This document shows, one piece after another, positions 3,301-62,098 of a stretch of 64,000 nucleotides of DNA. The stretch lies in the NCBI GenBank assembly GCA_963969365.1, contig OZ017749.1:3968001-4032000 (forward strand). The letters run 5' to 3'. The notes under the pieces are model-generated. The model was given only the letters and a program-made list of their open reading frames with translations. It was not told the origin of the DNA and did no database searches. How positions within the stretch are numbered: position 1 is the first letter of the stretch; every line of letters begins with the position of its first letter. The position numbers were made by a program, and so were the translations under genes. This DNA comes from Asterochloris sp. CNOR1 (Eukaryota > Chlorophyta > Trebouxiophyceae > Trebouxiales > Trebouxiaceae).

Positions 3301-6300
3301 ACCCAGCAGTGCACCGAGCGCTGCAGCAGCGGCCTCGGCCCCCGCATTCAGCTTTGGAGGCCCCAGCTCGGCAGCTGCAACTGCCCCAGCGGCAGCCTTC
3401 ACGTTTGGCTCCACTGCCGCGGCTGCCGGCAGCGGCCTCAGCAGCGCGGCTGCCCCCAGCTTCACCTTTGGGGGTGGTGCCAGCGCTGCTGCACCCGCCG
3501 CGGGCGCCGCCCCGACCTTCTCCTTTGGAGCCAGCTCCGGCGCTGCCCCTGCAGCCAGCGTCCCCACCTTTTCCTTTGGGGCCAGCTCAGCGGCAGCCGT
3601 TCCCGGCTCAACGCCTGCATCTGGATTTGGGGGGACCCCAGCGTCGGGCGCCGCAACCTCAGCCCCTTTTTTCAGCCCAGGGACTGGCTCTGTAGCCGGC
3701 GGGGCAGGCTCGGCACCTGCCTTCACATTTGGGGCGCCACCAGCGGCAGCGCCTGCATCGGCTGCGGCGCCTGCCTTCGGTGCAGGGCCGGGGGGTACCT
3801 CGGGACAGCCAGGGGCGGGGAGCTCTGCACCCACATTCAGCTTTGGAGGCGGGGCGGCAATGACTGGCTTTAGTGGGCAGACCTCTGCCCGTGAGTTAGG
3901 CTGGCTGCTCACCCTTGGCTCCTGTGCATTCTGCTTGTGCTCGCTGCCCACCTGCTGCTCAGTCGTAGTGTTAATGCCTCTGTGGGGAACAAGTACAGGG
4001 TGAACACTCACTGACTCGCCCTGGGTCAGGCAATGTCTCACCAGGTCTGCGCTGCTTGCTGCCTGAGCTGCTGCCAATGTCGAGTGCATGTAGCTGCGTC
4101 TGTGGCAATCCTTTTCTTCCTGTGTCGCAGCAGCTGCTGACTCTGCCCTCAGCATAGGCTGTCAGTGCCACGTGTTGAACCTCAGTTGCTGGGTTCTGTG
4201 GATACAAATGCTGGAGTCTGGGGCTGGGACAGGAACCCATCAGCAGTCCCCCGTATGGGTACTCTCTGGCGGACTCATCAGGGTTGCGCTGCCTGTCTTT
4301 CCAGCAAAGCGTGCCCTAGTCAGTGGGGAAAGAAACTCTTTTGCCTGACAAGTGCCCCCTGTCCCTGCAGCGGCCTCAGCGCCCAGCTTCGCATTTGGGG
4401 GCCCTGCAGCGTTCCAGGCGCGAGGCGGCTCCGCACCCTCCACAGGGTTCACCTTCGGGGCCTCCAGTGCTGGCCCGGCCTTTGGGGCCTCAGGCAGCGC
4501 GGCAGCCTTTGGGTCCAGCTCAGCGGGTCCAGCGTTTGGGGCCTCAGGCTCGGTGCCTGGGTTTGGAGCGAGCACAGCAGCGCCGGCTTTTGGGGCCTCA
4601 GGCTCGCTGCCTGGCTTTGGGGCAAGCGCAGCGGCTCCAGCCTTTGGGGCCGCGGGGTCCGTGCCTGGATTTGGGGCAAGCGCAGCGGCTCCAGCATTTG
4701 GGGCTGGGGGTTCGGCGCCTGGCTATGGTGGTGGCTCTGGCCCTACATTTGGCACAACAGGTGGGGTTTCCATGCGGCAGAGGAGGCTGAGCATGAAACT
4801 GCTACCTCAGGTGCTGAGCGTCAATGGGCAAGCTGTGTGACAAGCAACTTGAGATACCTGCTGTAGCACTACTTGCCTTCGATTTGGCAGCAAACAGTGT
4901 TGCAAGCAAAATGCCTGGACTGATGCTCATGTCTTGCTGCTCTGGTCAAGGCTGCCTCAACTTCAGACACACGATACTGACAGGTGCCCCTGCGCTTGCA
5001 GTTGCCCCATACAAGATGTATACAGACACAATCAAAGCGATATCTGATTGTTGTCAAGAGGACTATGTGTATGTGCTGTTTCTGCAGGTGCACCTCCTGC
5101 CAGCGGCAGCTTTCCATTTGGACAGTCCCAGCCCACACAGAGCGCCCCCGCCTTTGGAGCGCAGCCCGGCGGGCAGAGCGGGCCCAGCTTTGGAGGTGGG
5201 CAGAAGGAGTTGCTTCTGGATGTGCAATAAAGTTGCCCTGATGAACAAAGATCGCTGTTTCGAGACCCTGTAGCTGTTGAGGTGCATTGCAAGGGAGTTT
5301 TCTAATCAGAGCCAGGCAAGCACCCGTGCAGGGCACCTGGGAGGCAGCTGGGGTTGCTAGTGAGCCTTGTCACAAGGCCTGACTGAGCCCTCTCTGGGCC
5401 ATGAGGCAGTGCAAGTGAAAGCTTGTCCCAAGGCCTGGCTGAGCCCTCTCTGGGCCATGAGGCAGCTACAAGTGAAAGCCTGCCACAAGGCATGGCTGAG
5501 TCCTCTCTGAGCTGAACGCTCTCTGAGCTAACCGGTCAGCACACAGGCTGCAGCACAGCTGTCAAGGATGAGACATCTGGGCTGTGTTTATTGGGGAGGT
5601 ATCTGCTGCAGTCATCGGCTCCTAGCTGGAACCATGGCCCTTGGGTGTGAAGATGCAGGCTGCTGCTGGACCAGACTGTTTCATTCCTGTTGTGCGCTTT
5701 GCTGTGCTGGTGCTGATGCAGGCGCCATGCTTACTGGGCAGCAGCAGCCATGTGGGACCTGACTCTGCTTGGGACCTTGTAATGGTCTTGAGCGCCTTCC
5801 GGACAGCAGCAGCCGTGAAGGACCTGACTCTGCACACTCTGGTGGTCCTGAGCTTTGCTGTGCTGGTGCAGGCGCCGCGCCTTTTGGGCAGCAGCAGGCT
5901 GGGCCTGGCGCGGGAGCCCCATTCGCTTTTGGCGCAGCCCCCGCACAGACCGCACCTGCCTTCAACTTTGGGGCACAAGGTTGGTCGTGCCTGCTGGATT
6001 CTGTGCTGTTTGTCTGGCCCTTAATCTGGCGCCTTAGCCAACGAGCACCTCAGAGTTCAGGGTTTCATCTCTAAGCCCACCCTCCCTGCCCAGCTGGCCT
6101 TCTCTGGGTTGTGCTGCTTGACGCTCAGGCACCATTGAGCTGGGACAACCTGCTTCTGCCCTGTCGCTGCTGCCTCCTGCTCCATCAAGGCTCCTGCTGG
6201 AACTGTGAAGCTCTTTCTTTCAGTGGCGGAGAGTGGTCCAGCATATTGTCCTGCATGTCATGCCTGTCTTGCATAGTCTGCTGCCGGCCGTCAAGCAGGC

Positions 6301-7371: not shown

Positions 7372-7447
7372 CCCACCACCCCCTCAACCTCGCATCTTGA
7401 AGCCTGGCCCTTGCTCTGCCGCATCCAGTGCTGCCCTGCCGCGCTGA

Positions 7448-9121: not shown

Positions 9122-9321
9122 NNNNNNNNNNNNNNNNNNNNNNNNNNNNNNNNNNNNNNNNNNNNNNNNNNNNNNNNNNNNNNNNNNNNNNNNNNNNNNN
9201 NNNNNNNNNNNNNNNNNNNNNNNNNNNNNNNNNNNNNNNNNNNNNNNNNNNNNNNNNNNNNNNNNNNNNNNNNNNNNNNNNNNNNNNNNNNNNNNNNNNN
9301 NNNNNNNNNNNNNNNNNNNNN
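9122..9321. other. Assembly gap, 200 N
   Basis: A run of exactly 200 unknown bases. The size is probably a placeholder. The RING-finger segment begins directly at its right edge, so its 5' exons may be missing. Confidence 0.98.
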
Positions 9322-10543
9322 AGGCACCTGTGCCAGACAAGGACACCTGCAACATCTGCCTGGACACTTTGGGAAGCATGGCGGCCCTCACAGCCTGAAC
9401 TGTGGTAAGAAAAGCACCTGATGAACACTGGGGTCACATCTTTTGGCGCTGCAGTGCCACGGCACCCCTGCACAGGATGCAGTCACTTTGTAAGCCCAGC
9501 TCAGGTGGGGCGCGGCGGCGTACCTGGAGTTGCCATGCGGCTGCTTGGAGCACTGCAGTGCACACTCACCCCAGCTGGGTGGGGAAGGACAGCAGCTGCA
9601 ATGCCGCTATCTCAAAGTAAGCAGATCTGCCTGGTGCACATTCAGCTGACCAGCAGCGCTAGCAGCGCTGCCACCGCTTACGCACATCTCTTTTTCAATG
9701 AAATGCGGCCCTGTTCGAGGGTGGCTGACCTGTGGGGGTCATCAGCAGCCTTGCCGCTGTGCAGCACTCAGCCACAGAGCATGGTTGGAAGGAGGACAGG
9801 TGTCCTGGAGTCTCCGCCCCTAAAGGATTGGGCCTCAGCATGTCCCTTGCCTCATGTGGACTTGCTGTGCAGCCCACATGCACCAGCACCAGGCACTGGC
9901 CTTCTGGGCGCCCATCATCACGTTTTGGTGGTGCCGCTGCTCTGCCTCGGCAATGGACAGCACGCCCTGCCTAGCCCTGGCTGAATTTGCACGACTTGGG
10001 CTGCCCCACAGCAGCAGCTCTGCAACAACTCGATGCCCTCACAATACCCACTTTGGCACCGTGTCCAGCCAACACTGCATCTTTTCAACTACCAGTGGCC
10101 GTAGCCTTTGTGTGCTGGTGTGCAGCTGTTAAGCCTGACCCAGGACAGGCTTCTCGCAGAGCTCTGTCTGTGAGGCATGCGGCCCCTTGAAGCCGCACAC
10201 AACATGTTGCCTGCAGGTGCCGTTGGTGCAGCACAGCTTCATGTTGCATGTGCTCAAAGGGTGAGTCAGGTGCCTCCCTCTGTGAAGGGCACTCTCAACT
10301 GCTGCTGCCTGTGCAGGCCACGCCCTGCCCACGCCACCCTTCAGCTCACCCAGCACAGCTGCAGACTGTGTGAGCCCCAATACAGGTACTGGCTGCTGCG
10401 CACGGCACGAGTTCTGCACCTCCTGCGTCCGGTAGGGTGGCAGCAGCGCTCCACGCGGTGCCCCGTCTGCCGCGCAGACCAGGGCATCATCGTCCGTCGC
10501 TCTGGGGCTGGGCCGCGGGATGCCGGCAGTCACATGCCATCAG
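9322..10543 (+). CDS. RING-finger protein segment, 5' end in gap, frame broken
   Basis: RING fingers of the C3HC4 type bind two zinc ions and usually mark E3 ubiquitin ligases. Right after the gap, frame 1 reads DKDTCNICLDTLGSMAALTA. A second block from about 10386 reads GCCARHEFCTSCVR, and then, in a shifted frame, RSTRCPVCRADQGIIVRRS up to a donor at 10543. Together these give CxxC, HxxC, CxxC and CPxC in RING order. Each block contains a one-base frame change: at about 9390, where the sequence runs into a stop just before LNCG, and at about 10434. Both could be assembly indels or real decay. No substrate-binding domain was recognised. It may be joined to the RING segment at 12.5 kb. Confidence 0.6.
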
Positions 10544-10975
10544 GTGAGCCTCTTCACTCTCATTTCTGGTGCATGCAGCTTGCCCCAGAGTCCCGGCGGT
10601 GTGGTAGGGGCAGTCACTGGCTGTCGGGTGAGTCTCTCCACTCTCCCTCCTCTGCTGTATGAAGCTTGATGCGGAGTTGACACAAGGATCTGCTGGGGGC
10701 AGTCACACATGATCAGGGGAGTCTCTCCACTCCCACCTCTGCTGCATGAAGCTTGACGCGGAGTTGACAAGGATCTGCTGAGGGCAGTCACACGCGTTCA
10801 GGTGTGCCTCTCCACTCCCCCCTCTGCTGCATGCAGTCATCGCTAAAGGTGCAGGGGTCTCATCACGGCAGCCACATGTAGTGGGAATGAGCCTCTTTGC
10901 TCCCCCTTTCTGCTGCATGCTGCTTGCCCCAGAGTTGCTTAGGACAGTCACATGCCTTCAGGTCAGCCTCTTCCC
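10525..10975 (+). repeat. Array of exon-end plus donor copies after RING exon
   Basis: The real exon end and donor, ggcagtcacatgccatcag then gtgagcctct (10525-10553), recur as degraded copies at about 10607, 10697, 10783, 10867 and 10953, spaced roughly 80-90 bp. Each unit also holds a pyrimidine-rich stretch and ctgctgcatgcag, so each carries donor-like and acceptor-like signals. Copies at 10783 and 10953 keep ttcag followed by a gt dinucleotide. Confidence 0.85.
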
Positions 10976-12514
10976 TCCCACGTCTGTTGCATGCAGTTTG
11001 CTGCCCCAGAGTAATCAGAAGTAGGTCAGCTGGGGCACGCCTTGCCAGCTGGGCAACTGTCCAGGAGATGGTCATACCGTCACTTGCGCAGCAGCCTCAC
11101 AGGTGCATGTGCATGGGAGCGGTCTCTGCAGCACCAAACCTCATCTGCTGTGCTGCAGGAGGCGCTGCAGCCGCCATGAGCCTCATGCTCACGCTGCAGC
11201 ACATGAGGGGAAGTCCTAGCTCACCTGACCTGTCAAGTGAGCATGTAACCCTGATCTGTGCACGAAGCGGCAGCCTGCTGGCAAGCACTAAATAGGTTGC
11301 CCTGGTGGCGCTGGCGCCGCACTGCTGCATTGCACTGTGCCTCTGGCGGCAGCGCAGCCTGGTTGCTGCGGCCGTGATTTGACCAGCAGCGCCATCTCTG
11401 CCCACCAGCATGGAGGCTGTCTTGGTGCACATCTGGAGGCCCCAGTGTCACCAGCCAGCACTGCAGGTGCTGCAGCTCACAGAAAGCTGCCTGGCCTGCT
11501 GGCCACCTGCCGTCTGCTGCCCACTCTGCTGCTCCAGCTGCCATTCAATTGACACCTTACATTCAAAGCAAGTGATGCTATACGCCTATGTCCTTGCTGT
11601 GTGCTGTGTCCTAAGGGTGTTGACAGCCCGAAGCAACCCTCCCGCTGACACCCTGCCTCCTGCACTGCCTGCAGTGCAAGCTGTGGGCAGCTTCGCCAGC
11701 CTTGACGGGCACTTCCAGGCTCAGGACACCAGTACATCACTCAACACGCCAGTGAGTTCTGCATTTTCAGCATGAAAACTGAAGGACTGTGCCCTGCATG
11801 CCATGTGGTGGCATCGCCAATTAGCTTCACTTCTGCTTGAGCTGATGACATGCCAGCTTGTCAACAATGGTCCTTTTAATGTCACAACCTGAGATTTGAT
11901 GTTGTGTGCAGCCCCTCGTTCTGTCCCAGACAATGGAAGCAGACGTGATTGACCTCAGCGGGACCACACCTCCTGCAGCGCGCGCGCCAGTGACCTTGGC
12001 TATCTGAACATCGCCAACCACAATGTTGTGAACCTCACAACATCCTTCAGCACAAGTGTGCTGCTTCGCCGACCCCAGTGAAACCTTTGCTGTAGGAAAT
12101 TTTTCAGATCCAAAGTGACCCAAGTGCAGAACCTGTGCCTGACAGCACTGTGTTACATATCAGCGTACCCCCTTGTACACATCTGCTTTGTTGTGCACAC
12201 CCACAGTGCTGCTATGGTGGGCCTGCCACATGATGCATGCTCCATGTGTTTGCATTCTGAACCTGGTGCCCACTAGGTGTGAGATGCCCAGTGTTGTGAG
12301 CTTTGCAGTGACGCCGTGTCAATCCTGAACAGCAGCAAGCAGAAATCTTCGCCCTCCTTGGGCTATGTGAGTCAGCATCTGAAAAGGCAGATTTGGTGAA
12401 TTGCTGACTCAGCACCTTTGAATGCAAGGCTGTGTTCAGGTGGTCATAAGCAGGCTGCCAGCCCTGCAGGCAGCCTGGGGACCTTAGCCACATGGCCTCA
12501 TGCCATTCTTGCAG
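10976..12514. other. Poorly resolved stretch between the two RING segments
   Basis: Possible short plus-strand exons occur at 11672-11750 (frame VQAVGSFASLDGHFQAQDTS, donor gtgagt) and about 11915-12000 (MEADVIDLSGTTPPAARAP). A minus-strand frame at 11827-12123 also looks protein-like. None could be linked by phase to a recognisable product. Confidence 0.35.
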
Positions 12515-14162
12515 CATCTACACCCACACTCTGGGCATTCACGGGGGTGTGCAGACACTGGAGTGTGGTAAGGCTGCCTCTGCAGCCAGCATTAAACTGC
12601 TTAGTGGTCCTCATTGGCATTTGCCAGCCAGAGAGTACCAGCTTCAGTTTGCAAACGAAGACGTAAAGCATGGGGGGGCTGCATGAAGCAGATCAAACTG
12701 CTTGAGTGTTCCACTCTACTTGCGGCACACCCACTTGAGAGGCAAGGCCTGAGGGCTGCCCGGCTGTGCAGGTCACCCCTTCTGCAGCAGGTGCATCCAG
12801 ACCTGGCTGCAGCGGTCCGCAGCGTGCCCCATCTGCAGAACACAGCAGCAGGTGCCGCGCCCAGCGTTGTCGCTGCGCCCTCAGGCAGTGGCACCTAGCG
12901 CGCAGCAGTTGGAGGTGGTGTGCAGTCAACCAGTGCGCTGCAGCTGTGAGTGATTTCCACCCTTTTATTGCAGGCTGCAGCAGTAGCTGTCAGGAGGCCC
13001 AGCCTTGAGCTGGGTCAGCCGGCCTGTGTAGCAGGGTGGCATGTGGAGAGGGTACTTTGTCTGCACGTGCTGATCCCTTCAACAGCGCTGCAGGTGTGCA
13101 CCATGACGAGGTGAATGCAATCGACCCCCGGCCTCCTGTAGAATGGCGGTATGCTCCTCAGGGGGCTGCCTTTGACAGCACATCTCAGGATGGGTCCCTG
13201 CTACTATATTCATGTGGCAGCCAGCAAAGTTTTCCTCTGTGCTGCAGCCTCATGAATTGCCTCAGCAAAACGGCAGCCACGCATGGCAACCAGCCCACTT
13301 GCGCAATGCAACACAGGTGTTGCACTACCTGCAAACACAGTCTGACTGACATCGTTCCTGCCTCAGGACATGATGTGAGCCTGCTCGAGGAGCCAGACCC
13401 TTGGGAGCATGACAGTGTTCAGAACGGGTGGTCTGCTGAGCAGCAGCTCCCTGCCAGGCACAACTGGCACACAGGTATGGCTTCTATTGGGCATTATGAT
13501 ACATATATGAGGCTATGGAAGCATGACAGTGTTCAGAGCAGGTGGTCCGCTGAGCGACAGCCTTCCGCCAGGCACAGCTGGCACATAATGTTGCTTGTGC
13601 ATCCGGCTGCTGGCCATGCTCTGCTCTGCAATGTTTGAGAGTTTACCTCTTCTGGCTCTGCAGATTTCCAACCCCTTGAGGCAACAATTGAGGAGTTTGC
13701 TGCCCTAGGCTGGCATCACTTAGCCACATCCCACCCCATACCAGGTGAAGCACTGGATGCTCTAACTGGCAGGCATATGCAGACACAGCTGCACACCTCA
13801 GCTTTCTGCCTGTGCAGATTTGGCTAGGTACAGTGGCAGTCGTTTGCTGCTGTGGCTTTGTGTTTGCACGTTTTGTGTTTGCATCTGCAAGCTTGCAGAT
13901 GCAAACAAGTCTTAAGACTTCAACCTTTGGCAGCACAGGTTTGCATTGCAAGCACCCCAGTGCTGACGATGTGCTTGTAGTGCAGTCACTTGAGGCCAGC
14001 TACCATGTTGCCCTGGGCCCTCTGGCCACTGGAGCGGTGCTGGGCGCTTGCTGGCCTCTGCCAAGCTATGCAGGACTGACCACCCCTCTGGTGCAGCGCA
14101 TCACAGCCTTCCTGGACTTGCTGCCTAGAAGGGCCCCGTCAGCCTGTCTGGGGCGCAGGTAG
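12515..14162 (+). CDS. RING-finger protein, 3' part
   Basis: Exon 12515-12567 ends VQTLECG and is joined in phase to an exon from 12772 to about 12945 that begins HPFCSRCIQTWLQRSAACPI and continues CR. Together they give the CGHxFCxxC...CPIC core of a RING finger, so ubiquitin ligase activity is likely. Upstream of it only C-S-I-Y is seen where a CxxC pair is expected, so the first zinc pair is incomplete or lies in an exon I missed. Later blocks at about 13094-13200 (HHDEVNAIDPRPPVEWRYAP), 13368-13472 (DVSLLEEPDPWEHDSVQNGW), 13663-13744 (DFQPLEATIEEFAALGWHHL) and 13938-14162 (SLEASYHVALGPLATGAVLG, ending SACLGRR-stop) are not recognised. It could be the 3' half of the 9.3 kb RING gene or a tandem relative. 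Confidence 0.55.
13515..13595 (+). repeat. Recent-looking copy of the 13.4 kb exon end
   Basis: The sequence around gagcatgacagtgttcagaa to ccaggcacaactggcacaca in the exon at about 13405-13472 is repeated with modest changes at 13517-13590 (gaagcatgacagtgttcaga ... ccaggcacagctggcacata), about 110 bp downstream and past the donor. It is one of the least diverged echoes in the window. Confidence 0.85.
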
Positions 14163-14928: not shown

Positions 14929-23114
<8,186 letters not shown>

Positions 23115-23466
23115 GGCGTTCAGCAGGAGGCACTTTCAGTCTGAAAATGGTTGGCCCCTCTTTGTTCAATGCAGCTGGATGGTGTGGAGACTAACAAGGG
23201 CACTTGGCCAGCTTCAACCAAGCCTAGATTGCAAATATGACAAAATGTTGGAAGATGCCCGTGCAATCCGCAAGCCAGCTCTCACATTGAATTCACGTCA
23301 ATTAGTGAATAGGCGATGGCCTGTCAGCATGAGCTTCCTACACAATGAATCTTGTGCACGCCTGTGTTTTTCTTCCAGGACCGCAGCTGCGTCCTCATCG
23401 CATCCTGAGTGCAATCTCGTTTCCTGGAGGTGTTCGAGGCTTGCCGGACTGCAGCCAGTTTCCACG
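23115..23466. promoter_or_regulatory. Divergent PDK1/Lhca3 intergenic region
   Basis: 352 bp separate the PDK1 and Lhca3 start codons, so both promoters and both 5' UTRs must fit here or overlap. No clear TATA box or light-responsive element was recognised. Confidence 0.5.
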
Positions 23467-32853: not shown

Positions 32854-32866
32854 CAGATTTGCAGAG

Positions 32867-32876
32867 TTACATTACA
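32867..32876 (-). terminator. Two overlapping TGTAA signals for gene Y
   Basis: Plus-strand ttacattaca is two adjacent TGTAA motifs on the minus strand, about 150 bp past the gene Y stop and within 25 bp of the ERI2 stop. Confidence 0.5.
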
Positions 32877-33011
32877 ACTTACTCAGGCTCATCATCACAA
32901 TTGCTTGTGGGCCTCTTAGTACTCAACTCCCAGTTTTGTCAACCCACAAGACACTGGCTACAAGCAGTGAATGACATGACCAGGGGTGCAGGGTTTGGCA
33001 TATGATCCCCG

Positions 33012-33016: not shown

Positions 33017-33021
33017 ACTCT

Positions 33022-49600: not shown

Positions 49601-52600
49601 GGCAAGGGTGTGACAGGAAGGCAGGAGAGCACCTGCACGGTCACTCAGCACATGCAGTCACAAGAGAGACCGAGGCTGCTGCCCTTTGCTTCAACCTCAT
49701 GGTTTACGACAAGGTCAGGCATCTGACCGCACACCTGAGAGATGCATAATTGCAGGGGCGCATGGCTGCATGCATGCGTACTTTCTTTCTGCTTTGAAGA
49801 GCCTCTGCACTGTCATTCAGCTCTTGCAGTCACAGGCAATCACAAAGGGCAGAGAGGGTGCTGCCCTATGCTTCAAATACTATGCTGCACAGCAAGATCA
49901 GGTGTCTGACTGCACACCCGAGAGGCTGCCGAGACGCATCATTGCATGCATGCTTGCTTTAATTGTACTGTGGAGCATCTGACTGCACACCTGAGAGGCC
50001 GCCAGGACGCATGGCTGCATGCATGCTTGCATGCAGCTGGCTGGTGTTGCCGCCTGCCCAGGTGGTTGCAGATGGCTGACGAACAGAGGGGTGTGTCCTG
50101 CAGCAAACACGTCTTGCCCCTGACGAAGCACCAAACAGGCAGCGACATGCAGGGACATGACGGCGAAAGTGACTTCTGCTCAGTTCAATACATGGGTGAC
50201 CAATGGAAAGTCAGCCCTCCAAGCAGAGGCTGCAATTTGCAGGTGCTATGTTTGGTGACGTTCAAGGGTTTGCCTGCAAGTTAGAGTAGAGCCTGGGCTG
50301 CCATGCTGCCTGCAGCTTACTGTTGTGCCACCTCCTGCTGACACAAGGGGTGCACGGGGCAGCACATATTCAACTTGGGGCTGCACAAGGGCCTACATGC
50401 TGCAGAAGCTTGCAGCCCCCATGTGCAGCAGCACTTTGACAATGGTTCTCACAAAGAGACTGGCTCTCCTGCTGCAACTGCAGAATCACTCCAGAGATTG
50501 CCAGAAAGGATGGCTGCACCTGCCTGCTTGTGCGCAGGAGCACACCTCGGTGGCTCCTGATGCGCGAAGGTTGCTGATGCAAGGTGCCCACCTTGAGTCT
50601 GCGGCACCAGGCCCCTGCTTCACCCTGGCCTGGTCCACCAGCCAGGCCTGCAGCTGGCGGAAGGGGATGCTGTGCAGCTGGTGCTGGCGCGTGGTGAACA
50701 GCAGGAAGGGACCGCCCGGCCCCTCCTTCCTGACAGCCATGGAGGTGCAGTCAGGGGTGATGAGCTGGGTGCCCAGGTGGAGCTGCCCCTGAGGGGTCAG
50801 GCCGAGGGCCGGGGGCATACCTGCGGTGCAGGAAGTTAGAGCATTGAGCACAGAGCCTGAATGCACGCCATTGCAAGCTGTGAGGGGCCAGGCTGAGGGC
50901 TGGGGCCTGCCTGCAGAGCACAAATCTGGGGCAAGCGGCAGCGTTCAGCACATGCACGCAGGATGCCAGTCAGGCCATGCGCTGGCAAGCCTGTGTGCAG
51001 TGCAGGCAGATGGGGCATGCAGCTCAAAACATCAAGCACAGCTGCTGAGATGCATGTCGGCTTGCAGTGCCAGCACGACCCCGGGCTGTTGAGGCCATGT
51101 GTCGGGGGCATGCTCGCACTACAGGAAGAAGGGCCATGATGCTCAGTGTCCAGCACAGCAGTTGAGATGCATGTCTGTGGTCGTGATAACCCCTGCATCA
51201 TGGGCCTGCAGGCTCCAGCTGCAGCAGTACCCCACATGGTGCTGCAGGCCCAGAAGCACCAGATGCACTACCTAAAGTGCTCACAGGTGTGGCCGCCTCA
51301 TGCACTGCAGGGATTGGGGTCAGCAGCCCAGGCCAGATGGCCATTGTCACGCCTTGTGCTGATGTGGGTCTGCGAGTTCCTTACCTGGCAGCTGCAGGGC
51401 TGCGGCCGGCACAGGAACAACCTCTGCACAGGGACCGGGAAATCCTTGTAGGGCCCTCATGCCTCTGGCTGAGCAGTGGTGGATGGCGCCATTCTCGAGG
51501 TGCAGAAGCGCGCCCCCCGTGGGGCAGGGCAGGGCTTGCACCACCCTGGCTGGCAGACCTGCAGCCAGGGCGCCATTGTGATGCAGCTGACACCAATACG
51601 GCTGCGAGAGGATGAACATCTGGAGCTTAGCATCTCAATCAAGTGCAAGCTTTGCAGCAGCATGAAAACAAGCCCGTTTGCTTGCTTGCAAGGCATCCTT
51701 GTTGTGTGTGCTTTGCATCAACCTGCATAAGAAGCACCTTACGTGCTTTGCATGCACCTGCCATGTGCAAAGCAGCAAATGCAAAGTAGTATGTGTTTTG
51801 CTTTCCAGGGATATCAAAAAGTGCAAACCCCAACAGCAGCAGAGTTGCACAGGCAACAGCCTCTGCATTGGGAGCCTGCACAAGTAGCCACACAGAGCAG
51901 CCCTCAAGCAAATGCACCTGCACAGCTGAGGGTGGTTGGCTGGGCGCTGACAGTGTTGCCTGGGCCCCACTGAAGCTCCAGCATGACAGTGGCGTCAGAC
52001 CCTGCGCCGCTGGAGCCGACCAGCAGCAGCTGAGCCTCAGACATCCAAGCCATCAGCCTGCAGCACGTCAGAGGGGCACAGGTAACACAGCTGGTACTGG
52101 CAGCGGTCACCCAACACCAGAATAGGTCTTGGCAGGCAGGCCTCCCTCAAACAAGGCAGCAAACTTTAGCTTGACTACTCAAACGTCCGGCACCTACAGC
52201 TGATGCCCTACCCATCAGTAGTCGCCCAAAACCATGACGGCTGGGGTTGCAGGACTGCGCAGCCCTCGGCTGTACTGGCCATCCCCCACCTGATGAAGTT
52301 TGCAAACGTACTTCCGTGGGAGGCTCGACTCCTTATCAGTGTCAGATGTTCCCCAAATGGTGCTGGACACGGCCATGGCTGCGCGTGCACACACAGCAAC
52401 TGCAATGCCTGTGGGCAACACACCAGGGCTGAGGCCGCAGGACACAGGCAAACACCATTTTGGTTACCTGATCCTCCGAGCCTGATGCACCTCGATATGC
52501 ATCTGCACTTCCGTGGCGGATAGCTGCGGCTCATCATCAATGTCGCCCAGAGTGTTGGCGGCGCTGCTGTGGTCTGAGGCTTCGGCCGCCTCAGCAGCTT

Positions 52601-55600
52601 CGATCTGAGCATCCGGCCAGTTGTCCTCATCTGAACAATGCACCATGTGCAGCGTGCCAGCAGCTGTCAGGATGGCCACCACCTGCAATCAGCGGCAGTG
52701 ACCCCGGTCATAACCCATGCACTGGTGCAAGGCGCTCGGCTGCCAACTGTATTGTTACAGCACCTGCAAAAGCTGACAATGACAGCAGGAGAAGAATGGC
52801 GCTTACCAGAGAGCGCCCAACCACACAAAGATAGTCTGTACGTCATGAAATCAGGCCCGCAAATCTTAATTACAGCAGTGATACAATGATAGCATTGAAT
52901 CCAGACAGGTGAACGCACCTCTGCTGGGCCCTGGTCTCTGATTGCTACAGCCTGCACAGCGTGGGGGACCTGTACAGCAGCTGAGAACATGGGCGGCGGC
53001 ACGCACTCACGCCCAAGGGCTGTCAGCAGGACTCTGTGCCCATCCACCACCGCAACAGTGCCGCATTGGCTGGCAGCATAGGTGCTGGTGAAGGTCACCT
53101 GCAGGCACAGGGCCGTTAAGCACTCAACTTGAGGTCACCAACAGGGGCACAGGCCCTAGTGGAGTGAGCAGTCTGTGCCGAAGACACCAGCAGATACAGG
53201 GGTAAGGAAATGAGCAGGCGGCTCTAGCATGCTGCCTGCGGAGGCTGCCGCTCTTGTTGGCTCATGCCTTTCAGCCCAGCTAGCTATGAACATGGCTGAT
53301 GACGATTCCTCCTCTTGTGCCGAAATAAATCAAGCTTCCAGCACGTTCTTGAAAACAAGACCGACTTGATCTGCTTTGCAAAGCACTGAAAGTGATCTGG
53401 CAGGGCAACTGGAAGCAATCCTGAGTCATTCCCTGACATGGGAAGCAAATGTTCATGGTCCTTCCTTGCCGCATCAACGGCACCTCAGCATAGTGGTCTC
53501 GTGGATGGTGAAGGGACACAAGATGCAACTGTGCTGAATGCTGATAGAGGGTTGTGCTGTGCAAAGAAGCTGTCCAATCCACCTGTCCAGCTGGTAGGAG
53601 CCGGTGGCAGCAGTCGGTCACAGCCCTAGGGCACCAACAGCACCACTCGCACCCTCACCTGCCGGTGCAGGCCCTCTGCGGTGGTGGCTGCCAGCCGCAT
53701 GGGGTGTGCAGGGTCCCACTGTGCCACCACAGCAGCTGCGCCATCATACCAGTGCTCCGCCTTGCAGTACCACTTCCAGTTGCTGCGCTGCCAGACCTGC
53801 ACCCGGTGGTGCCCCTGTGGCTGTGCTGCCTGTGCAGCCCGCCCTGCATTCTGCCGCTGGGGCTGCTCAGCAGCTGGCTGCGACCTGGAGCCACAGCTGT
53901 GCTCAGCAGGCTGTGCTGCAGGCCCTGGCTGCGCCGCCTGTGCAGCCTGCCCATCAGCTGAAGGCTGGGGCTGCTCAGTGGCCAGCTGTGGCGCGGAGTT
54001 GCAGCTCTGCTCTGCAACGTGCCCGCTCTGCTGCTGCCTGCCAGCAAGGGATGCAGGGAGGCGTTCAGGTTGGCCCTCTAGGCCGTGTGCCGGCAGGCTG
54101 GCAGGTGACAGGACGACTGCCAGGCGCTCGGAGTCTGTGCTCCAGGCAAGGCTGCCGATGACTCCTGTAGGCACCAGCAGCAGTCTGCTTCAGCAGGCAG
54201 ATCTCTGGAGTATCCTGCCCTGAAGGTGCCTGGTGCTGGGTTCATTGCAGGCCAAGGGCCTATAATGCTCTCTGCCCTGAAGGCAGAAGCCAGAACTCAT
54301 GCTTAGAGCCTGTGCTCCAGGCAAGGCTGCTGATGACTCCTGTAGGTACCAGAAGCCTGTGTCAACATGCAAATCCTGTGGAGTATCCAGCCTGCAGGGT
54401 GCCTAGAACTGCTTCCAAAGCATCCTTTGGGCCCAGCAAGCCCTCTGTCCTGGAGGCAGTAACTAAAATGCAACCACAGCTCTGCTTTGTCACTGCTGCC
54501 TACATGCGCTGCTGTGTACTTGTACTTTGAAGGCTGAGCAGACCAACCCAAGTCTGTGGTGGAAAGCTGTGCGACACCCAGCAAGGACATTGGCCTGAGG
54601 GAAACAGCAGCAGCAAATGGAGATGTGGCCAGGGTGCAGATGTGCTCATGCGTCATGCTCAGCAATGTGTGCTCAGGCCCTGTGCGCAGACAGGTTCAAA
54701 TGTGTGAATGACAACGCTGATGAGCAATACCGTCAGTTGGTGCTGACAATCAATGGTGCTTATGTGACAGGACGCAGTGTGCAGGCAGGCTGATGCAGCT
54801 TGCCTTGGCCAGGAATCGAAAAGCCCCCATGTTGCAGCCCATTGGTCTCAAACAGCACCACCCGGTTGCCATGCTCTGGAGACGCCTGGGCAGCATACAG
54901 GTGGCGGCAGTTCGGCTGCCAGGCCAAGCAGGGCTGCAGTCCCTGCACCCCCTCCCCCACGCTGTGCAGGGCGCAGCTCTCACGTGTCCAGATGCGGACT
55001 GTGGCGCTCATCCCTGCAGACAAGCTGAACGTTGGTTACTCCTGATGTGGCAGATGAATGCTGTGTTTCTGCCTTCAGCCAGCTGGCACTGGGCGCATTC
55101 ACAGCTGCTGTGCTGGCGATCTCGCCAGGTGAGAACCAGCTCTTTATTGCTAAACAGCTAGAAAGTGGCAATGGACTACAAGAGAGCCCGTGCTCAAGCT
55201 CAGGGCTGCCATTAGCTGAAAGCAGCAGTCCCTCCTGAAGCAAAAATGGACACTGAGACCAGATGTGCATCAGGGCCTGGATCCCATATATTGTTACCAT
55301 CAATGATGTGCAAAGCAAAGCTTTAGGCAACAACAACCTGTTGAGTATGTTGTAAACCCCTTCTGCCTGTTGTCAGAACGCACATACGTGACTGCCCTTT
55401 TTCTGAGCTGGATGCCTTCACCCTGACAGGCCAGTCCAGGGCGTGCCCCAAGACGAGCATCACCACGTCAACAACAATGCTGAATTCAGTGGAGAAAACC
55501 TTTATACCGGTGGTAGGGATGCACAAAACTGGTGGAAAACCCCCTTCTACATGTGGTCAGAACGCACAGACGGGGACTGCCCCTTCCTGCGCTGGGTGCC

Positions 55601-57566
55601 TCTGCCCTGACAGGACAGTCCAGGGCATGCCCAAAAAGGGCTGCTGCTGACCTGGGGCCTGCCTGTCAGCGGATCTGATACCACCAATGATGTGCAAAGC
55701 AAAGCTTCACGCAACAACAAACTGACAAGTACGTCGTAAAACCCTTCTGCCTGTGGTCAGAATGCACAGACGTGACTGCTCCTTCCTGCACTGGATGCCT
55801 CTACCCTGACAGGTGAGTCCAGGGCATGCCCCAAAAAGGGTTGCTGCTGACCTGGGGCCTGCCTGTCAGCCGTGGCAAAGTATCTGCCATCCCCCCGCCA
55901 TGTGACTGCGACCTCCCCCGGCTGCAGCACTGCAGCAGACGGCGCTGCCTGGTCCTGAGGCCGCCTGCCTGTGTCCAGCCAGGACTGCAGGGGCACCTCT
56001 GCCAGCAGCTGCCAGTACTGCAGCGCAGTGAAAGCATGGTCTGCCAGTGCGCCTTGCAAAAAGTGCATCCCACGTCTGAAGATGGAAGGTCAGCATGATG
56101 ACACTTGATGAGCATCAGTGGAATGATGTGCTGATTTCCAGTAAGTGCTATCCTGCCTCAGCCCTGCAGTGGCTTGGAAAAAAGCACAATGCTGCTGTCG
56201 TTGAGAGATCATCCAACTCGCTGTGGTTTTGCTGACTGCAACATGTGGCACGCAAGGCGGGCAGGCATCTCTGCATCGGCATAGTCCTGCAGGTCACCAT
56301 GCTTCAGCAGCGCAGGCATGACTCCATGAGCAGCATCATGGGTCAGCACTTGCTGTCAGCAACCATTCCTTTATCTGCAATAGCTGACCAAATGATGGTG
56401 TAACGCCATGCGCTCAGCTGCTGCTGGCAGCCTCACCTTGCTCATGAGCAGCAGCTGGCGCTGCTGCGTGACCAGGACGACCAGCTCCCCATCAGGGCTC
56501 CAGGCAAAGGCAGCCAAGCCCCCCTGCACCGTGCCCACCTGCAGGCAACAAATTTGGGACAGCAGGGACAAAGCTCTGGCAGGGTGCTGAAATACCGTGG
56601 TGGTTGTTGTGCAGAGCCCCCTGGCAGGGCACAGCTGTGAAGCTCCTGGCAGCCTGTCACTGGTCAAAGGCCCATTGGTTGCCTCTTGCCAAGCATGGCA
56701 TGTCTACTATGCCCATCATGGTGGAAAGCGATGTGAAACTAAGCTGAAAACCTTCGAGACGTCTGGTCCCTGTGCACGTGGTGGGGCTACATGACTGAGT
56801 TGTGCATGTATATATGTCAGCTATGCCCGCACTGGGGGAAAGATTTAGGCAAGCTCAGGTTCATCTTGTTGTCCTTCATGGCAGCAAACCACCAGGTAGT
56901 CATGAAACTTGACAAGCTCTTTGGATACTTGCGGGGCACAGGACATCTCTCGTGCCACTCAAGAGGGGACCTGGCCCCAATGTTGTTGACCCTTGTTGTA
57001 CCTTGCCAAAACCCAGGAGCAGCTGATCCGCGCAGCGGCCCACCCACAAAAAAACGCTGTGCATCAAGTGGCACAGTAAGGAGGCTTTCATGCAGCAGAG
57101 CCCCCTAGACAACTCAGGCACATCAGTGTGCAAGCTTATGCAGTGTGGCAGTCCCTGAAGCCATGTGCTCACCACCTCGTGCCCGCCGCTCTCAGGCTCC
57201 AGCAGCAACAGGTCACCGCTTGACGCTGCTGCAAAGAGAGCACTCTCTTCTGGCAGGTACCAGAGCCCCACAGTCCCTGTTCCCTGGCAGACTTCTGCAC
57301 CTGGGAGCTCAGTGAGATTCCAGGCAGCAACAGCCTGCATGGCAGCGAGTAGTCATGCCAACTGTGTTTCTCTGGCAAAGCTTGCTAATTTACAGATCTG
57401 TGCTTTGCATTGGAGATACCTTGGAGTGCCGATAAGCTGTCACTGAGCATGCTGCATCTGCCACAAACAAAGTGCTGCTTTGGGCATCGAGGGCCGCACT
57501 GTGGATAGCACGCCCCTGTTGCGGCAGTTGCTGCCACTGATCACTTGTGTTCACCAGGTTACGCAT
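40688..57566 (-). CDS. ELP1: Elongator complex subunit ELP1 (IKI3/IKAP)
   Basis: The scaffold subunit of Elongator, which installs cm5-type modifications on wobble uridine of tRNAs. Start at 57566 (MRNLVNTSDQWQQLPQQG). Exons 57566-57420, 57334-57173 and 56538-56437 fit in phase (GTVGLWYLPEESALFAAASS; AFAWSPDGELVVLVTQQRQL). Further blocks: 56060-55825 (VAVTWRGDGRYFATADRQ), 55020-54790 (VRIWTRESCALHSVGE), 54165-53630 (SLAWSTDSERLAVVLSP, WYCKAEHWYD), 53098-52920, 52690-52480, 50830-50600, 49260-49100 (VLQLPRGNLEVVSPRILVL), 48640-48510 (YAEAWELATANRVDLNIMVD), 46370-46210, 45155-44920 (ALGMYDVELAYMVISHAQRD), 44610-44360 (FEDAAAAFLAAGALPEALRA), 43568-43368, 42885-42720, 42030-41820, 41450-41330 and 40915-40688. 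The C-terminal SSVVSGMSAYTS and KKKKGK stretches match the ELP1 tRNA-binding tail. The second propeller region holds a Gln/Ala-rich insert of about 70 residues. Confidence 0.93.
44030..44340 (-). repeat. Two copies of the AYQLGG exon end in ELP1
   Basis: The real exon ends EALRAYQLGGQWRMVFAVAGG with its donor near 44360. Degraded copies follow at about 44170-44290 (LRAYQLGCRAVWSLHRQVG) and 44030-44160 (WGAYWLGCYGVRLCPEE). Both lie inside the following intron, spaced about 160-190 bp. Confidence 0.85.
45320..45735 (-). repeat. Three copies of the ALGMYDVELAYM exon start in ELP1
   Basis: The real exon starts ALGMYDVELAYMVISHAQ at about 45157. Upstream in transcript direction are ALGMYDVDLLAHHLSS (about 45365-45320), VLGYYVSELACIVTSHAQ (about 45480-45425) and LGNYEVEEHVQAQ (about 45725-45685). 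The flanking intron (plus strand ccagctgagggatgaggtga, then cgtggagcagtcag) is copied with them, at 45181 and 45506. Confidence 0.9.
46290..46520 (-). repeat. Copies of an ELP1 exon start near the VATAVRQALEQAG block
   Basis: The real block (plus strand cagtggccactgccagcacc at 46363) has degraded upstream copies at about 46430 (gtcgttgccagcaccttgat) and 46500 (agtggccactgccagtcccc). Spacing is about 65 bp. Confidence 0.7.
46929..47024 (+). repeat. 24-bp minisatellite, four units, in an ELP1 intron
   Basis: The unit acaccctcacaactggccag plus ragg occurs at 46941, 46965, 46989 and 47013 with few changes. It lies between recognised ELP1 exons and is non-coding. Confidence 0.93.
49300..49570 (-). 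repeat. Two copies of the LAAQDVAVRTV exon start in ELP1
   Basis: The real exon (LAAQDVAVRTVEPGSRL, from about 49262 downward) is preceded in transcript direction by copies near 49385-49330 (GMAAHDMAVRSA) and 49560-49510 (LAARDTAFAHGGAS). The acceptor-side ctgcag context is partly preserved. Confidence 0.85.
54290..54420 (-). repeat. Copy of the SLAWSTDS exon start in ELP1
   Basis: Plus strand ctgtgctccaggcaaggctg, then cygatgactcctgtagg, occurs at the real exon edge (about 54135-54175) and again at 54309-54347, about 173 bp upstream in the transcript. Confidence 0.88.
55290..55870 (-). repeat. Multi-copy array after the ATADRQ exon of ELP1
   Basis: The segment ggtcagaaygcacagacg ... ctgacagg...agtccagggc recurs from 55373, 55556 and 55755. 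The sequence gatgtgcaaagcaaagctt occurs at about 55306 and 55691. The unit nearest the exon holds the real donor; the copy at about 55640-55670 repeats cagcagcaggtc-type donor sequence next to a degraded exon end. Confidence 0.88.
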
Positions 57567-57656
57567 GTGAATGTTGAGCCAGTCTTGGCTGACCTACTCA
57601 TTGTTTTTTCTTGTCTTAGACGCAGCTGTGGGGCTGAATCTTCCCGCTGTTGCCAG
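57567..57656. promoter_or_regulatory. Compact divergent promoter of ELP1 and DNAAF3
   Basis: Only 90 bp separate the two start codons. The interval includes a T-rich stretch (ttgttttttcttgtcttag). Because ttgccag directly precedes the DNAAF3 ATG, that ATG could instead be inside an exon whose acceptor lies here, with the true start upstream and overlapping ELP1 antisense. Confidence 0.5.
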
Positions 57657-60600
57657 ATGCCAAAGGTGCTGGATGATCACAATGTGCACCAGTTCTGGGG
57701 CCTGTCACCTGCAGTTGATCTGGCAGAGGCTGCTTCATGCAGCACCTCTGGTATTAGCAATGATGGCCCCATCCGCATCCTGCAGGTGATGCATCAAGTT
57801 CTACCCCTGCATGGAGTATGCCAGCAGCAACACCAAAACACAGCAACCCCTGCCTGCAGATGGGGGCCTATGACTGCAGACACACAGCCCTCACTCTGGC
57901 CCGCCGGGCCCAGCATGCTGCTGTCAGCAACAAGGGCATGCAGCTTTACATTGTGGAAGACGAGCCTGAGGTGCTAGCCAGGCACCTGCTGCTGCTGAGC
58001 GTCCTCCTGGACAGGGCACTCCCTATCAGGGCCAGAGTGGAGACCTTCTTGGAGCTGCACGGGAATGCACTGCTGCAGCAACGCACCGCAGAGTATGCAG
58101 GTGAGCTCCTCTTCCCTTCTGGCTCGTGCAGGGGAGCACGACCATGGGCGAGGGGGCTTGCCCGCAGAGCTGCTTGGGTGCATGCCAGCAACGCATGGGC
58201 TGCTCACAGCGCAGCAGCTCTGCAAGTTGTCCAGCGGCACAGCTACTGCATTGGTGGCAAGCTGCAGCACTCAGCGCCGCCTCAATTGAAATTGTGTCTC
58301 TGCTGCCAGCATCTAATGCCCACCTGACTGGAACAAACTGTTGCTGAAGACATCTGAAGTGCACAAGCGCTGGTGGTGCCACTTCCCCCTGCCCTGACAG
58401 CAGCAGTGTGCACTGCATTGAGGCATCCGTCACTGTTTTGCAGCCAAGCGGGGCCAGCTGCTGGAGGACCTGGTGCTGGACGGCAAGTCTCCCCAGGGGA
58501 TGGAGGCCCTGGCAGCGCTGGCGGACTTCAGCAAAATGAAGTTCAAGGACCGTGACGCAGTGGCGGCAGCCCTGAGGCAGCTGAACCTGAAGGTGTGGCC
58601 TGGAGCGCGCATGAGATCAAGGCAGTCTTGGCACGCCATGCTGAGCCTGTGGTGAGCCCAAGTGACACTGGCGGAGGCTGGGCACAGAACTAATGTGGTG
58701 GCTGCAGCAAGAGGTGCAGCTTGCAGCCAGGGTGACGTAGCAGCCACGACGTCTTGGCAGTCCAGCACCAGTCTGTGTACACAGGCAGCTCTGCAAGCCA
58801 GGAGGGTCTGACTGCTTGGGTGCACTGGTGCCAGCAGCTGCACCACAGGATGCCTGTGAGGTCTGGTGCCCTTGCTGCAGGTGGCGGGCACCGTCCAGCA
58901 AGTCTGGCATTACTGTTTGCCCTTGTTGCAGGCGGCATACCTCCACATGAACCCTGGCACCTTGCAGTGCTATGTCCTGCATGCTGCAAGCAGTCAACAT
59001 GCCTGGAACCTGCAGGCAGTGCGCACCATTGAAGAGAGATGCTGTGATTTTCTGCTGCAGGTGGCCTACGACATGCAGAGAGCCTGGGAGGCCAGGTGTC
59101 GTAGCTACTACCAGGAGCGATATGACACCATGCGCAATGCGGTGAGGCCGCTGCAGACAGACTGCTGACCTTGTTTGAGGGACGTCCCAGGCAGTGGGGT
59201 CTGGCTCCAACTGGTTTGACCAGACCTTTCAGAGCCACAGCTGGAGGCAGTGTATGTGGGTGCAGCCCCGTCAGCCCACTGCAGCCAGTCCTGCCTGCAC
59301 TGCTACATAGCATGCTGAGAGGTACACAGGCCCAGGTGGACGCCAGCAGTGCAATGGGGCGTCTGCATTGCAGGCAGGGTCCAGCTACACAGCAACGATA
59401 CAGCCGCAGCGGCTGTGTGCCTCATGCATGAGACCCCACGCGGCTGCTAGCACCTTGACACAGTCTCACACTGAAGACTGGCTTTGCTGGAGGACGTGCT
59501 TGTGTGGGCACTGTCCTTGGACGCTCTCTCGACCTGACGCATGGTGATGGGCCGTCTGTTGTGGCCCTGTGTGTATGCAGTGTGGGGGTGTTTTTGAGTG
59601 TCCTTCAAATTGTGTACTGTGGCAATGGTGCTGATGAGGTCAAAAGATAAGCCTGTCTGCGCACCTGTCACTGTATGCAGATCGACTGGGACTACCACAT
59701 GAAGCTGGCCAAGCCTGGCGCCCTGGGAGGAGACAGCACCCTGGCTGCACACATCATTGCCCTGCCACACTTCAGGTGAGGTTATGACAATGTGGTGGCA
59801 GCAAGCTGCTCTGAGAGGTTCTGCTGTTGGCATGAAAGCAGCCTTGCATGCACTTCTTGTCGCAGGCCCTGCTGAGCAGCTTGACATCTCTGCAGCTCAG
59901 CATTACGTGCAGGGTCAGATAGTTGGTGAGCAAGCTTTGCTGCTCCCCTGGCAGCGCAGCCAGTGCATGCTTGGCATGTCACCGCCACGTCCCAGCTTCC
60001 CGAGACGGCAGCAGAATGCTTGACTGCTGGCGCTGCTGGCTGCAGGACGTGGCGATTAACAGGTTTGGCATATGAGCAGAGGGACTGCAGCTACCCACAG
60101 CCCAACCGCTTGCTGCTCAGCACAGCCCAGGGGCGCAGCAAGGAGTTCAAGGACAGGTGGGCTGCCATACTGTCAACCTTGGTCTACAGCATGCTACACT
60201 GCGCTGCCAACAAGTATGGTGCAGCTGTCCCGCCCAGAGGTGGTTGGTCCCGTTTTGGTAAGTTTGCATGTAAAGCCGGCAGGCTGTGGCAGGGTCCCTG
60301 TTGCCGTGCCCAAACCATGCACAGCTTGCAGCAGAGCCCCATGACATGCGAGCACAGCTGTTGCGCAGCTTGCCAGCAGGAGCCACAGCTCAGGCAGCCC
60401 TGCAGTGCACAACCTGCAGCATTGCCATTCAACAAGCAAGCACAGCTGCTGCTCAGCTGGCCAGCAGAAGCCCCCAACTTGTGCAGGCAGGTGCGACACC
60501 TGTGGGGCAGTACGCTGGGCACTTGGGCCAGTTGTTGCAGCCATCAAGGGAGGGGGGGGGATGCCTGTTGATGCCTGCAGGGCAGGGCAACAGAAGGCTC

Positions 60601-62098
60601 TGTCCGGGCCACAGTACAGAACATGATGCGACAAGCAAGAGCGCAGCATCCTGGGCCTAGGACCTCTGGCAGAAGCTCGCAGGCGTCCAATTTGAGGCTT
60701 GCAGGCCCAGACAGTGCATGTGGGCGCAGCAGCCCTCTGAGCAAGCTTTCTGGAGCTTCGAATGCCTCTCTGAGAGATAACAGCCCTGCTGGTGCCTGCA
60801 GGCAGGGCAATGACCGTGGGCGCAGTGTCTCAGCTTGGGGCTTCTGGGGGGACATCCTCAACTCCCCATACCACTGCTTTGGCACAGCCTGCGAGGACCC
60901 AGCTCTCTTCCGCGTCAGCAACCAGCGGTTTGTGCACACCTCTGTGGACGTGGCAGAGCGCAATGTGGAGGTAAACGCGTAGCAGGCAGTCCCTGTGTAT
61001 GGAAATGGAGCGTTGGCTGCAACAGTGCCTGCAAGGACTCAAGAGCTGTGCTGTGTGAGTAGTTTGTGAACATGTCTGTAGGCGGCAGAGCAACACTTGA
61101 GGTGGGCTGAGCTGTGGGCAGTGATGCAAGCAAAGCGCTGCGTATGCGCAACTTGTAGGCACCACCATCTTCCAGCATGGTCATTCTGGGGACCTCCAGC
61201 CCAGCTGGCTGCAATTGCATTGCCATGCCTGGCTCTTTGACAGTTTGCAGATGGTCGTGCAAGCCTTTGTCAATGAGCTGGCTGCATGTCAGGCGGCACC
61301 TCACGGGAGTTGAGTCAGTGCTTTCCTGGCAGCAGGCCCTGATCCAGGCACTGGAACCCACCGTCGACGCAGCAACAGCAGGAGGTGCAGCTGAGGGGGA
61401 GCATGCAGGCAATGGGCATGCCAGCCCGGAGCCAGCGCAGCAGGTGTGTAATGGCATGGCTCACTGCTGCGTTATGCAGCCTCAGGCTAGATGTGTCTGC
61501 CCTCTGCAGCAGGCGTGGCCCACTCATTTACACCATGGGTCTGCACAAGACGTTTTGTGCTTGAACTTCAGCTGTGTGACGCGGTTTTGAGTGTCTCCTC
61601 TGTGTTATGAGCTTGCCATTTTCAAGGGCCTGGTGCTTTTCTGCAGGGTCGGCACAGTCAGCGGTGGAGCAACTGTAAGCTGACGTTTCTGACTGGTGCC
61701 AGCGCTAAGCAGCTGACAGCACAGACCAAGCTCCATGCGGCCTTCTCTGTCATCTGCCTGGGGAATCAGCACGTGCACATGTTGGACCAGAAGCACAACC
61801 TGGTGCAGCTTGCCAGACCCGGCGGACTGCTGCTGGTCGAGACAGCCAAAAACACCCTGCAGCTGAGCAAGCAACAGGTAAGTAGCCACAAGGCAATGCC
61901 AGCCACATCTCTTTCTTGCGCAGCCAGCATGACAACCACCACCCTGCAAATGCCATGCAGGTGCAAACCTTCGCTGTTCTGATAGCAAAGAATGCAGCAG
62001 CTCCTGGCTGGGTGACAGAGGCCAATGAGAGCATCTCTTCAGCATGCCCCCCAGACTTTGCCAAATTCAGACTCGCTGCTGGCATTCCGTCTTCGTGA
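57657..62098 (+). CDS. DNAAF3: Axonemal dynein assembly factor 3 (DNAAF3/PF22)
   Basis: A cytoplasmic factor needed to preassemble flagellar dynein arms. Exons in phase: 57657-57785 (NVHQFWGLSPAVDL, the conserved FWGLSPA start), 57860-58100 (MQLYIVEDEPEVLARHLLLL, ETFLELHGNALLQQ), 58444-58592 (DFSKMKFKDRDAVAAALR), 59061-59141 (RSYYQERYDTMRNA), 59681-59775 (IDWDYHMKLAKPGA), 60046-60156 (LAYEQRDCSYPQPNRLLLS), 60802-60970 (WGFWGDILNSPYHCFGTACE, SNQRFVHTSVDVAERNVE), about 61250-61443 (ALIQALEPTVDAATAGG), 61647-61878 (KLTFLTGASAKQL, HMLDQKHNLVQL) and 61958-62098 (stop). WGDI, NPxxFGI-like and HNV/RNV signatures match DNAAF3. The block near 61250 needs a non-obvious junction, and the last exon is assigned by phase only. 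Confidence 0.9.
58925..58965 (+). repeat. Copy of a DNAAF3 exon start in the upstream intron
   Basis: tgcaggcggcatacctccac atgaaccctgg (58928-58960) resembles the real acceptor and exon at 59055-59090 (tgcaggtggcctacgacatg cagagagcctgg), about 130 bp upstream. A weaker gcaggtggcgggcaccgt copy lies at about 58878. Confidence 0.65.
60570..60740 (+). repeat. Two copies of the DNAAF3 exon 7 start
   Basis: The real edge, ggtgcctgcaggcagggcaa at 60791, has copies at 60571 (gatgcctgcagggcagggcaa, offset by one base) and about 60693 (gaggcttgcaggcccag, then tgtgggcgcagcag). Spacing is about 100-120 bp, in the preceding intron. Confidence 0.8.

Follow-up and report, generated by a model that had tools for sequence, protein, structure and literature searches.

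The 64-kb window analyzed here, from the green alga Asterochloris sp. CNOR1 (assembly GCA_963969365.1, contig OZ017749.1, positions 3,968,001 to 4,032,000 of the forward strand), averages 58% GC and holds the genes listed at the head of Table 1, among them those for an FG-nucleoporin-like protein, a protein kinase, ELP1 and a protein with DUF4470 and DUF4471 matches, a pair which we take to mark DNAAF3. An Lhca3-type gene, acceptors of the form CTGCAG^G, the GC content and the long introns are in keeping with a green alga; for Tetradesmus obliquus, tabulated values are 57% GC and a mean intron length of 462 bp. Introns and some exons of these genes contain degenerate direct repeats lying close to one another, and part of these repeats copy the edge of an exon together with its splice site; such copies are referred to below as echoes. 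Minus-strand coding sequence at 40.7-45.2 kb, if this is what the initial annotation called gene Z, would be the C-terminal half of ELP1, since TPR_ELP1 and HB_ELP1 (a three-helix bundle) both score above cut-off there.

Exon edges were the predictions of a gene model trained on this window and anchored by Pfam and PDB matches, with the splice consensus CTGCAG^G for acceptors and CAG^GTGAG for donors (the caret marking the cut). The initial model over-predicted exons and was replaced by a second model with 117 exons. From these, 20 were taken out manually, namely echo copies, weak models and two exons whose places went to longer ones defined from homology and open frame. Removal of one more, scoring below 8, and entry of the two longer exons gave 98 exons with 189 edges; hand removal of echo exons may bias the junction tests in either direction. 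With respect to ELP1 exon 54804-55013, homology runs past the modelled donor to an apparent GC donor, recognized by eye, that the model missed, and the end of this exon was entered as 54806 in the edge list, about 2 bp off.

Repeat density was judged against shuffled sequence and against inverted repeats, within this one 64-kb window. Self-comparison of the whole window at E<=1e-3 returned 45 direct local pairs and one palindrome, a perfect 32-bp sequence at 13876-13907 which is the only inverted repeat at that threshold. At E<=1e-2 blastn gave 51 direct pairs, all of them local, the palindrome lying outside this count; far and inverted pairs were absent, and each of 10 shuffles gave none. When the threshold was relaxed to E<=10, local pairs numbered 69 direct versus 1 inverted, four shuffles giving 0-1 of each, and far pairs stayed near shuffle level (20 direct and 23 inverted versus 13-20). 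The degenerate local direct repeats reported by the initial annotation are thus real, and its view that each array is private to its place and arose by repeated local tandem duplication agrees with these counts. Blastn on the whole window seems to miss lags under about 60 bp (the smallest found was 64, and TRF finds shorter ones), and for this reason an ungapped search at lags of 15-800 was added; it produced 89 segments forming 37 arrays, versus 0, 0 and 1 in shuffles.

Repeat lags were mostly below 300 bp. The ratio of direct to inverted 8-mer pairs was 2.2-3.1 at lags of 10-200 bp and fell to 1.39 at 200-300 and 1.13 at 300-450, reaching about 1 at lags above 450. Masking of the detected arrays left a weaker excess (1.1-1.7 for lags up to 200 bp), a sign that additional, older copies may be present. 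Units were adjacent head to tail where the aligned length reached the lag, as at 29084 (84 bp at lag 81), 44066 (191 at 162) and 10525 (310 at 84); elsewhere it was shorter, as at 15344 (42 versus 157) and 37958 (141 versus 579), and at such arrays adjacency of the units is putative; decay of unit ends would look identical. Of the arrays, 13 of 40 in the blastn catalogue or 14 of 37 in the ungapped one lay clear of predicted exons, and 3 of 40 or 4 of 37 lay within exons.

Similarity between exon edges and introns was specific to the adjoining intron. Of 168 comparisons of 60-nucleotide exon-only probes with the intron next to them, 17 reached a score of at least 30; comparisons with other introns did so in 3 of 4200, and those with the reverse complement of the adjoining intron in 1 of 168. 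The initial annotation would have been refuted by similarity to the own exon no higher than that to other exons, and for a minority of edges the similarity is higher. Median scores were nearly equal (16-16.5 versus 16; a rank test gave P=0.012 for other introns and 0.21 for the reverse complement), and own-junction echoes concern that minority. A copy of at least 15 bp was present in 25 of 91 introns, and 23 of 189 edges lay in or within 3 bp of a copy; because of these proportions the introns cannot be described as generally "filled" with copies, as had been proposed. Copy-bearing introns were longer (median 615 versus 354.5 bp, P=2e-5), as would also be expected if long introns simply offer a larger target. 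The positional rule that had been noted, with donor copies downstream of the donor and acceptor copies upstream of the acceptor, was obeyed by 29 of 32 mapped echo sites; two of the exceptions lie within exon 22515-22731, and the third, at 38461, is an exception relative to the acceptor of a duplicated exon at 38000.

The arrays are collected in Table 1. The clearest include the six units at 10.5-11.0 kb and the three ELP1 units at 55.3-55.9 kb. Membership of exon 10447-10543 in the same gene as the RING match at 12.76 kb is putative, and we set the extent of ELP1 exon 53659-54164 ourselves, guided by its open frame together with a weak alignment to ELP1. The DNAAF3-type gene had been listed among those with echoes, and this holds for a junction echo of about 27 bp, which scored 35 (200 shuffles gave 24 or less, and 11 other edges of the gene 16-26); the longer array in that gene touches no modelled edge.

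Table 1. Genes and repeat arrays of the window, numbered from its first nucleotide; exons are model predictions.
Feature	Position	Strand	Lag (bp), spacing or basis
FG-nucleoporin-like gene	about 1-7.3 kb	+	named from FG repeats alone
RING-type gene	zf-RING_2 match at about 12.76 kb		match below Pfam cut-off
Protein kinase gene	15-21.4 kb	-	Pkinase match; "PDK1" is the initial annotation's label only
Lhca3-type antenna gene	about 24.2-27.7 kb		database match
Exonuclease-like gene with GRF zinc finger	30-32.9 kb (30064-32900)		RNase_T match below cut-off
Gene at 35-40.5 kb	35-40.5 kb	+	taken as the initial annotation's gene X, given there without coordinates
ELP1	40.7-57.3 kb	-	Pfam and PDB matches
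DNAAF3-type gene			DUF4470/DUF4471 matches
Ribosomal L1 gene			database match
Nucleoporin-like: intron-only tandem array	5366-5512	+	56-bp unit, about 2.5 copies
Nucleoporin-like: acceptor-region copies upstream of exon 5872-5979 (splice-site copy at 5722)	5693-5897	+	65, 156
RING-type region: six units, five of them decayed copies downstream of the sixth, the predicted donor region of exon 10447-10543	10525-11012	+	spaced about 77-89
Kinase: copy of start of exon 15120-15388, upstream of acceptor	15344-15542	-	157
Kinase: donor-side copy of exon 16547-16766 (Pkinase match)	16307-16578	-	
Kinase: two acceptor-side copies of exon 16547-16766	16699-16969	-	101, 197
Kinase: donor-side copies of exon 17683-17810	17454-17746	-	82, 186
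Kinase region: donor-side copy of exon 18478-18667	18213-18494	-	229
Unnamed gene: donor-side copy of exon 29191-29336	29084-29248	-	81
Gene at 35-40.5 kb: copies downstream of exon 37268-37399 donor	37343-37725	+	92-304
Gene at 35-40.5 kb: exon duplicated with upstream intron (38000-38122, 38587-38789)	37958-38685	+	
Gene at 35-40.5 kb: acceptor-side copy of exon 39338-39441	39124-39375	+	161
ELP1: donor-side copy of exon 43372-43558 (TPR_ELP1)	43264-43433	-	100
ELP1: donor-side copies of exon 44360-44561	44066-44416	-	162
ELP1: acceptor-side copies of exon 44921-45152	45094-45665	-	212-326
ELP1: acceptor-side copies of exon 46220-46397 (A-sol_ELP1 match below cut-off)	46347-46538	-	64, 139
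ELP1: acceptor-side copies of exon 49096-49259 (aligned to solved ELP1 chains)	49219-49561	-	98, 295
Within ELP1: tandem array clear of predicted exons	49626-50030	-	73-256
ELP1: acceptor-side copy of exon 53659-54164	54131-54459	-	175
ELP1: three units downstream of exon 55852-56017 donor	55292-55870	-	184-200 apart
DNAAF3-type gene: intron-internal repeat touching no modelled edge	60318-60472	+	88
DNAAF3-type gene: weak 27-bp echo (60564-60590) of acceptor region 60785-60810 (exon 60802-60970)	60564-60810	+	

Other repeats were observed in the same genes. An ELP1 intron carries 4.1 tandem copies of a 24-bp unit, with 93% matches, at 46928-47025, a 108-bp direct repeat at 53818-54016 falls in the low-complexity linker of a putative ELP1 exon, and a run of 25 G residues at 36530-36554 lies just inside an intron, directly after the donor of exon 36303-36521. 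A single scan of the Lhca3-type protein against viral contigs found no relative.

We consider, with a probability of roughly three in four, that the arrays reflect ordinary local tandem duplication with neutral decay and not a new element aimed at splice sites. Time and again, introns and some exons would have acquired local direct duplications, most of them about 15-300 bp long. The route was probably an ordinary one, for example replication slippage, microhomology-mediated repair or unequal exchange, and the placement of duplicated units along genes would be close to random. A unit falling within an intron would leave an intron-only array, and one straddling an exon edge would create an additional copy of that edge and its splice site. 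If the outer splice site stays in use, as is likely, the extra copies would sit within the intron, escape coding selection and decay, and echoes would for that reason be found downstream of donors and upstream of acceptors. The positional rule follows from this geometry, because any other choice of splice site would place the extra copy in the message, and the rule is no separate evidence for a mechanism.

The extra copies had been described as decayed, and comparison by codon position bears this out. In the 22 of 40 arrays that pair an exonic with a non-exonic copy, one pair being taken from each, mismatches were spread almost evenly over the three positions (42/277, 49/272 and 55/276; 15%, 18% and 20%); five exon-exon pairs gave 24/160, 19/159 and 47/161 (15%, 12% and 29%), raw counts being compared. 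The gene at 35-40.5 kb has one exon in duplicate; both copies are open, with 3, 1 and 10 mismatches by codon position, and this array is best read as an ordinary retained tandem exon duplication. The best copies were 72-89% alike in 26 of 28 arrays, which would be more divergence than assembly error makes. An origin of the arrays in the assembly itself, by collapse or mis-joining of tandem copies, could point to the 200-N run at 9122-9321, which marks a scaffold gap; given copies that differ far beyond sequencing or assembly error, it is scarcely credible. A burst of duplication was considered from the lack of young copies, 1 of 28 arrays being at least 92% alike versus 28.5% in a constant-rate simulation (P=0.001); the ungapped catalogue contained 5 of 26 such arrays, and a burst is not claimed because the deficit failed there.

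The initial annotation had further proposed that duplication is centred on splice junctions. In its mechanistic form this would make splice sites hot spots, through CTGCAG/CAGGTGAG microhomology, R-loops or transcription-replication conflict, and several results weigh on its side and against the random placement that we favor. Of 32 arrays, 19, 18, 17 and 14 touched an edge at margins of 3, 5, 8 and 15 bp, with P values of 0.038, 0.054, 0.060 and 0.12 against rotation of the arrays along the window, and with exon-internal arrays left out 19 of 29 and 17 of 29 did so (P=0.012 and 0.027). Three other counts gave a clearer excess. With placements that spared exons, 23 of 36 arrays lay at an edge versus 16.1 expected (P=0.015). 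Simulation of decay and detection predicted a junction share of 0.31-0.38 ungapped or 0.34-0.40 gapped, and 24 of 35 arrays were observed at junctions (P=0.0006 versus 0.40 and 0.00001 versus 0.32). Within genes 24 of 33 arrays were junctional versus a share of 0.45 (P=0.0012; stricter exon sets lowered this to about 4e-5). The rotation test gave a weaker excess, as did the independent ungapped catalogue, in which 19 of 33 arrays were junctional (P=0.10 versus 0.45 and 0.002 versus 0.32). Edge-touching 8-mer pairs had a direct/inverted ratio slightly above that of intron pairs (2.48 versus 2.31; 1.61 versus 1.56 for k=7). Identity in the 22 exon-intron pairs was also equal in exon and intron parts (82.3% versus 82.8%, with no difference among the 13 pairs holding enough of both), though one constrained copy should raise that of the exon part. 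Simulated surplus for the exon part was 2-6 points ungapped and within 1 point gapped; equality was not retained as an anomaly, the gapped simulation being near it and the ungapped one disagreeing. Taken together these points may reflect a modest junction preference, or longer survival of junction arrays.

Measures taken base by base gave no junction excess. In the blastn catalogue 771 aligned columns were exon-intron and 2202 intron-intron, so that the former made up 26% (95% interval 16-38%) versus 33% of the opportunity, and in a direct count of 8-mer pairs at lags of 30-250 bp the junction-crossing excess was 0.72 times the within-intron excess (95% interval 0.38-1.28). Direct/inverted ratios of pairs between an exon and its adjacent intron (1.82 for k=8, 1.31 for k=7) were below those of intron pairs. 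We gave these measures more weight because they are referred to inverted pairs, or to every pair of positions at the lags in question, which share the same geometry, and array counts less because an array counts as junctional even if only a small part of it touches an edge. The number of distinct edges hit was not above rotation (18 versus 17.3 expected, sd 4.0), and roughly one array in three lies away from predicted exons. Several motifs exceeded dinucleotide expectation in the window (CTGCAG 232 versus 135, TGCAGG 323 versus 146, CAGGTG 155 versus 90). Abundant CTGCAG would suit microhomology at splice sites; the excess is window-wide, however, and breakpoints are blurred at about 20% divergence, so the ctgcag/gtgag signals suggested as drivers were not demonstrated as such. 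Junction targeting is not established, the P values of the array counts running from 0.12 to 0.00001 with catalogue and null, and as an account of the arrays we regard it as unlikely.

Echoes might also be functional, that is, kept as alternative or decoy donors and acceptors or as recursive-splicing points. Their splice dinucleotide was identical in 27 of 29 cases versus 64% for other AG/GT in the same alignments (P=0.0003; pairs at E<=0.2), and core splice bases were identical in 62 of 64 versus 78% nearby (all pairs at E<=10). In these controls, however, changes on either branch are counted, whereas a real site cannot change and the echo branch alone can lose one. For this reason the conservation is not evidence of function and lies close to what decay of a single branch predicts; when changes on the echo branch alone were counted, P was 0.07 for acceptors, 0.22 for donors and 0.08 combined, and splice-site conservation was set aside as a sign of function. 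Echo sites also scored below the real ones (mean 5.2 versus 7.4), 6 of 32 being at or above the real site, and codon-position bias was slight. Retention of echoes for a function is, on this evidence, very unlikely.

A broader possibility is that tandem duplication truly concentrates at junctions, through a link with splicing or transcription, and that its arrays lengthen introns and stock them with intact alternative splice sites. This is distinctly unlikely; in its favor are the array-count excess and the high retention of the splice dinucleotide described above. Long introns are a conspicuous trait of green algae around Chlamydomonas, the advantage of their length being called unknown in one report (PMC8226300). 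Small local duplications could lengthen introns simply, without transposons, and spare splice sites beside real ones, as a by-product, could feed alternative splicing.

The arrays can be compared with several known systems. Intron gain by local duplication, as in the model of Rogers in which an AGGT-containing exon segment is duplicated (PMC3443670), involves the same type of mutation; such duplications are frequent in the window, and CAG^G is common to both splice consensuses of the gene model. The likeness of the two ends of one intron which that model, as outlined there, leads one to expect was absent from the window: donor and acceptor windows of the same intron showed none in 82 introns (median score 16, highest 23). 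As these windows are not copies of each other, intron gain was not seen, and though old gains may have decayed past detection we hold this origin for the arrays to be highly improbable. Introners, which have been reported from green algae among others (PMC9860276), likewise place repeats within introns; as presented in that report and in PMC3443670 they form dispersed families, whereas far repeats in the window were close to shuffle level. No far direct pair reached E<=0.1 within the 64 kb, and for that reason the arrays are not introners within the window, as the initial annotation had held. The exon present twice in the gene at 35-40.5 kb, copied with its upstream intron and open in both copies, resembles the tandem duplication behind mutually exclusive exons, as described in PMC6071210. 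The catalogue as a whole differs from that system in that a whole predicted exon falls within the array span in 1 of 40 arrays, the one in this gene, the rest copying part of an exon or none.

Arrays of exon-edge copies were not found among the literature matches listed, which were judged mostly by title and the start of the abstract. The statement that no described element is of this kind nevertheless overlooks published tandem genomic duplication spanning exon-intron structure: in a potato RdRp gene such a duplication copied intron, acceptor and exon, and one intron of that gene carries a further tandem duplication of 83 bp (PMC4974935). The window shares with the potato case local duplication across exon-intron structure. 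It differs in that the potato copy is recent and made a new intron, while the copies here are decayed, are many within 64 kb, and came with no detected new intron. Tandem genomic duplication that copies exon-intron structure is already recognized, and the window does not by itself show a new mechanism; its notable feature is how many decayed copies lie within 64 kb.

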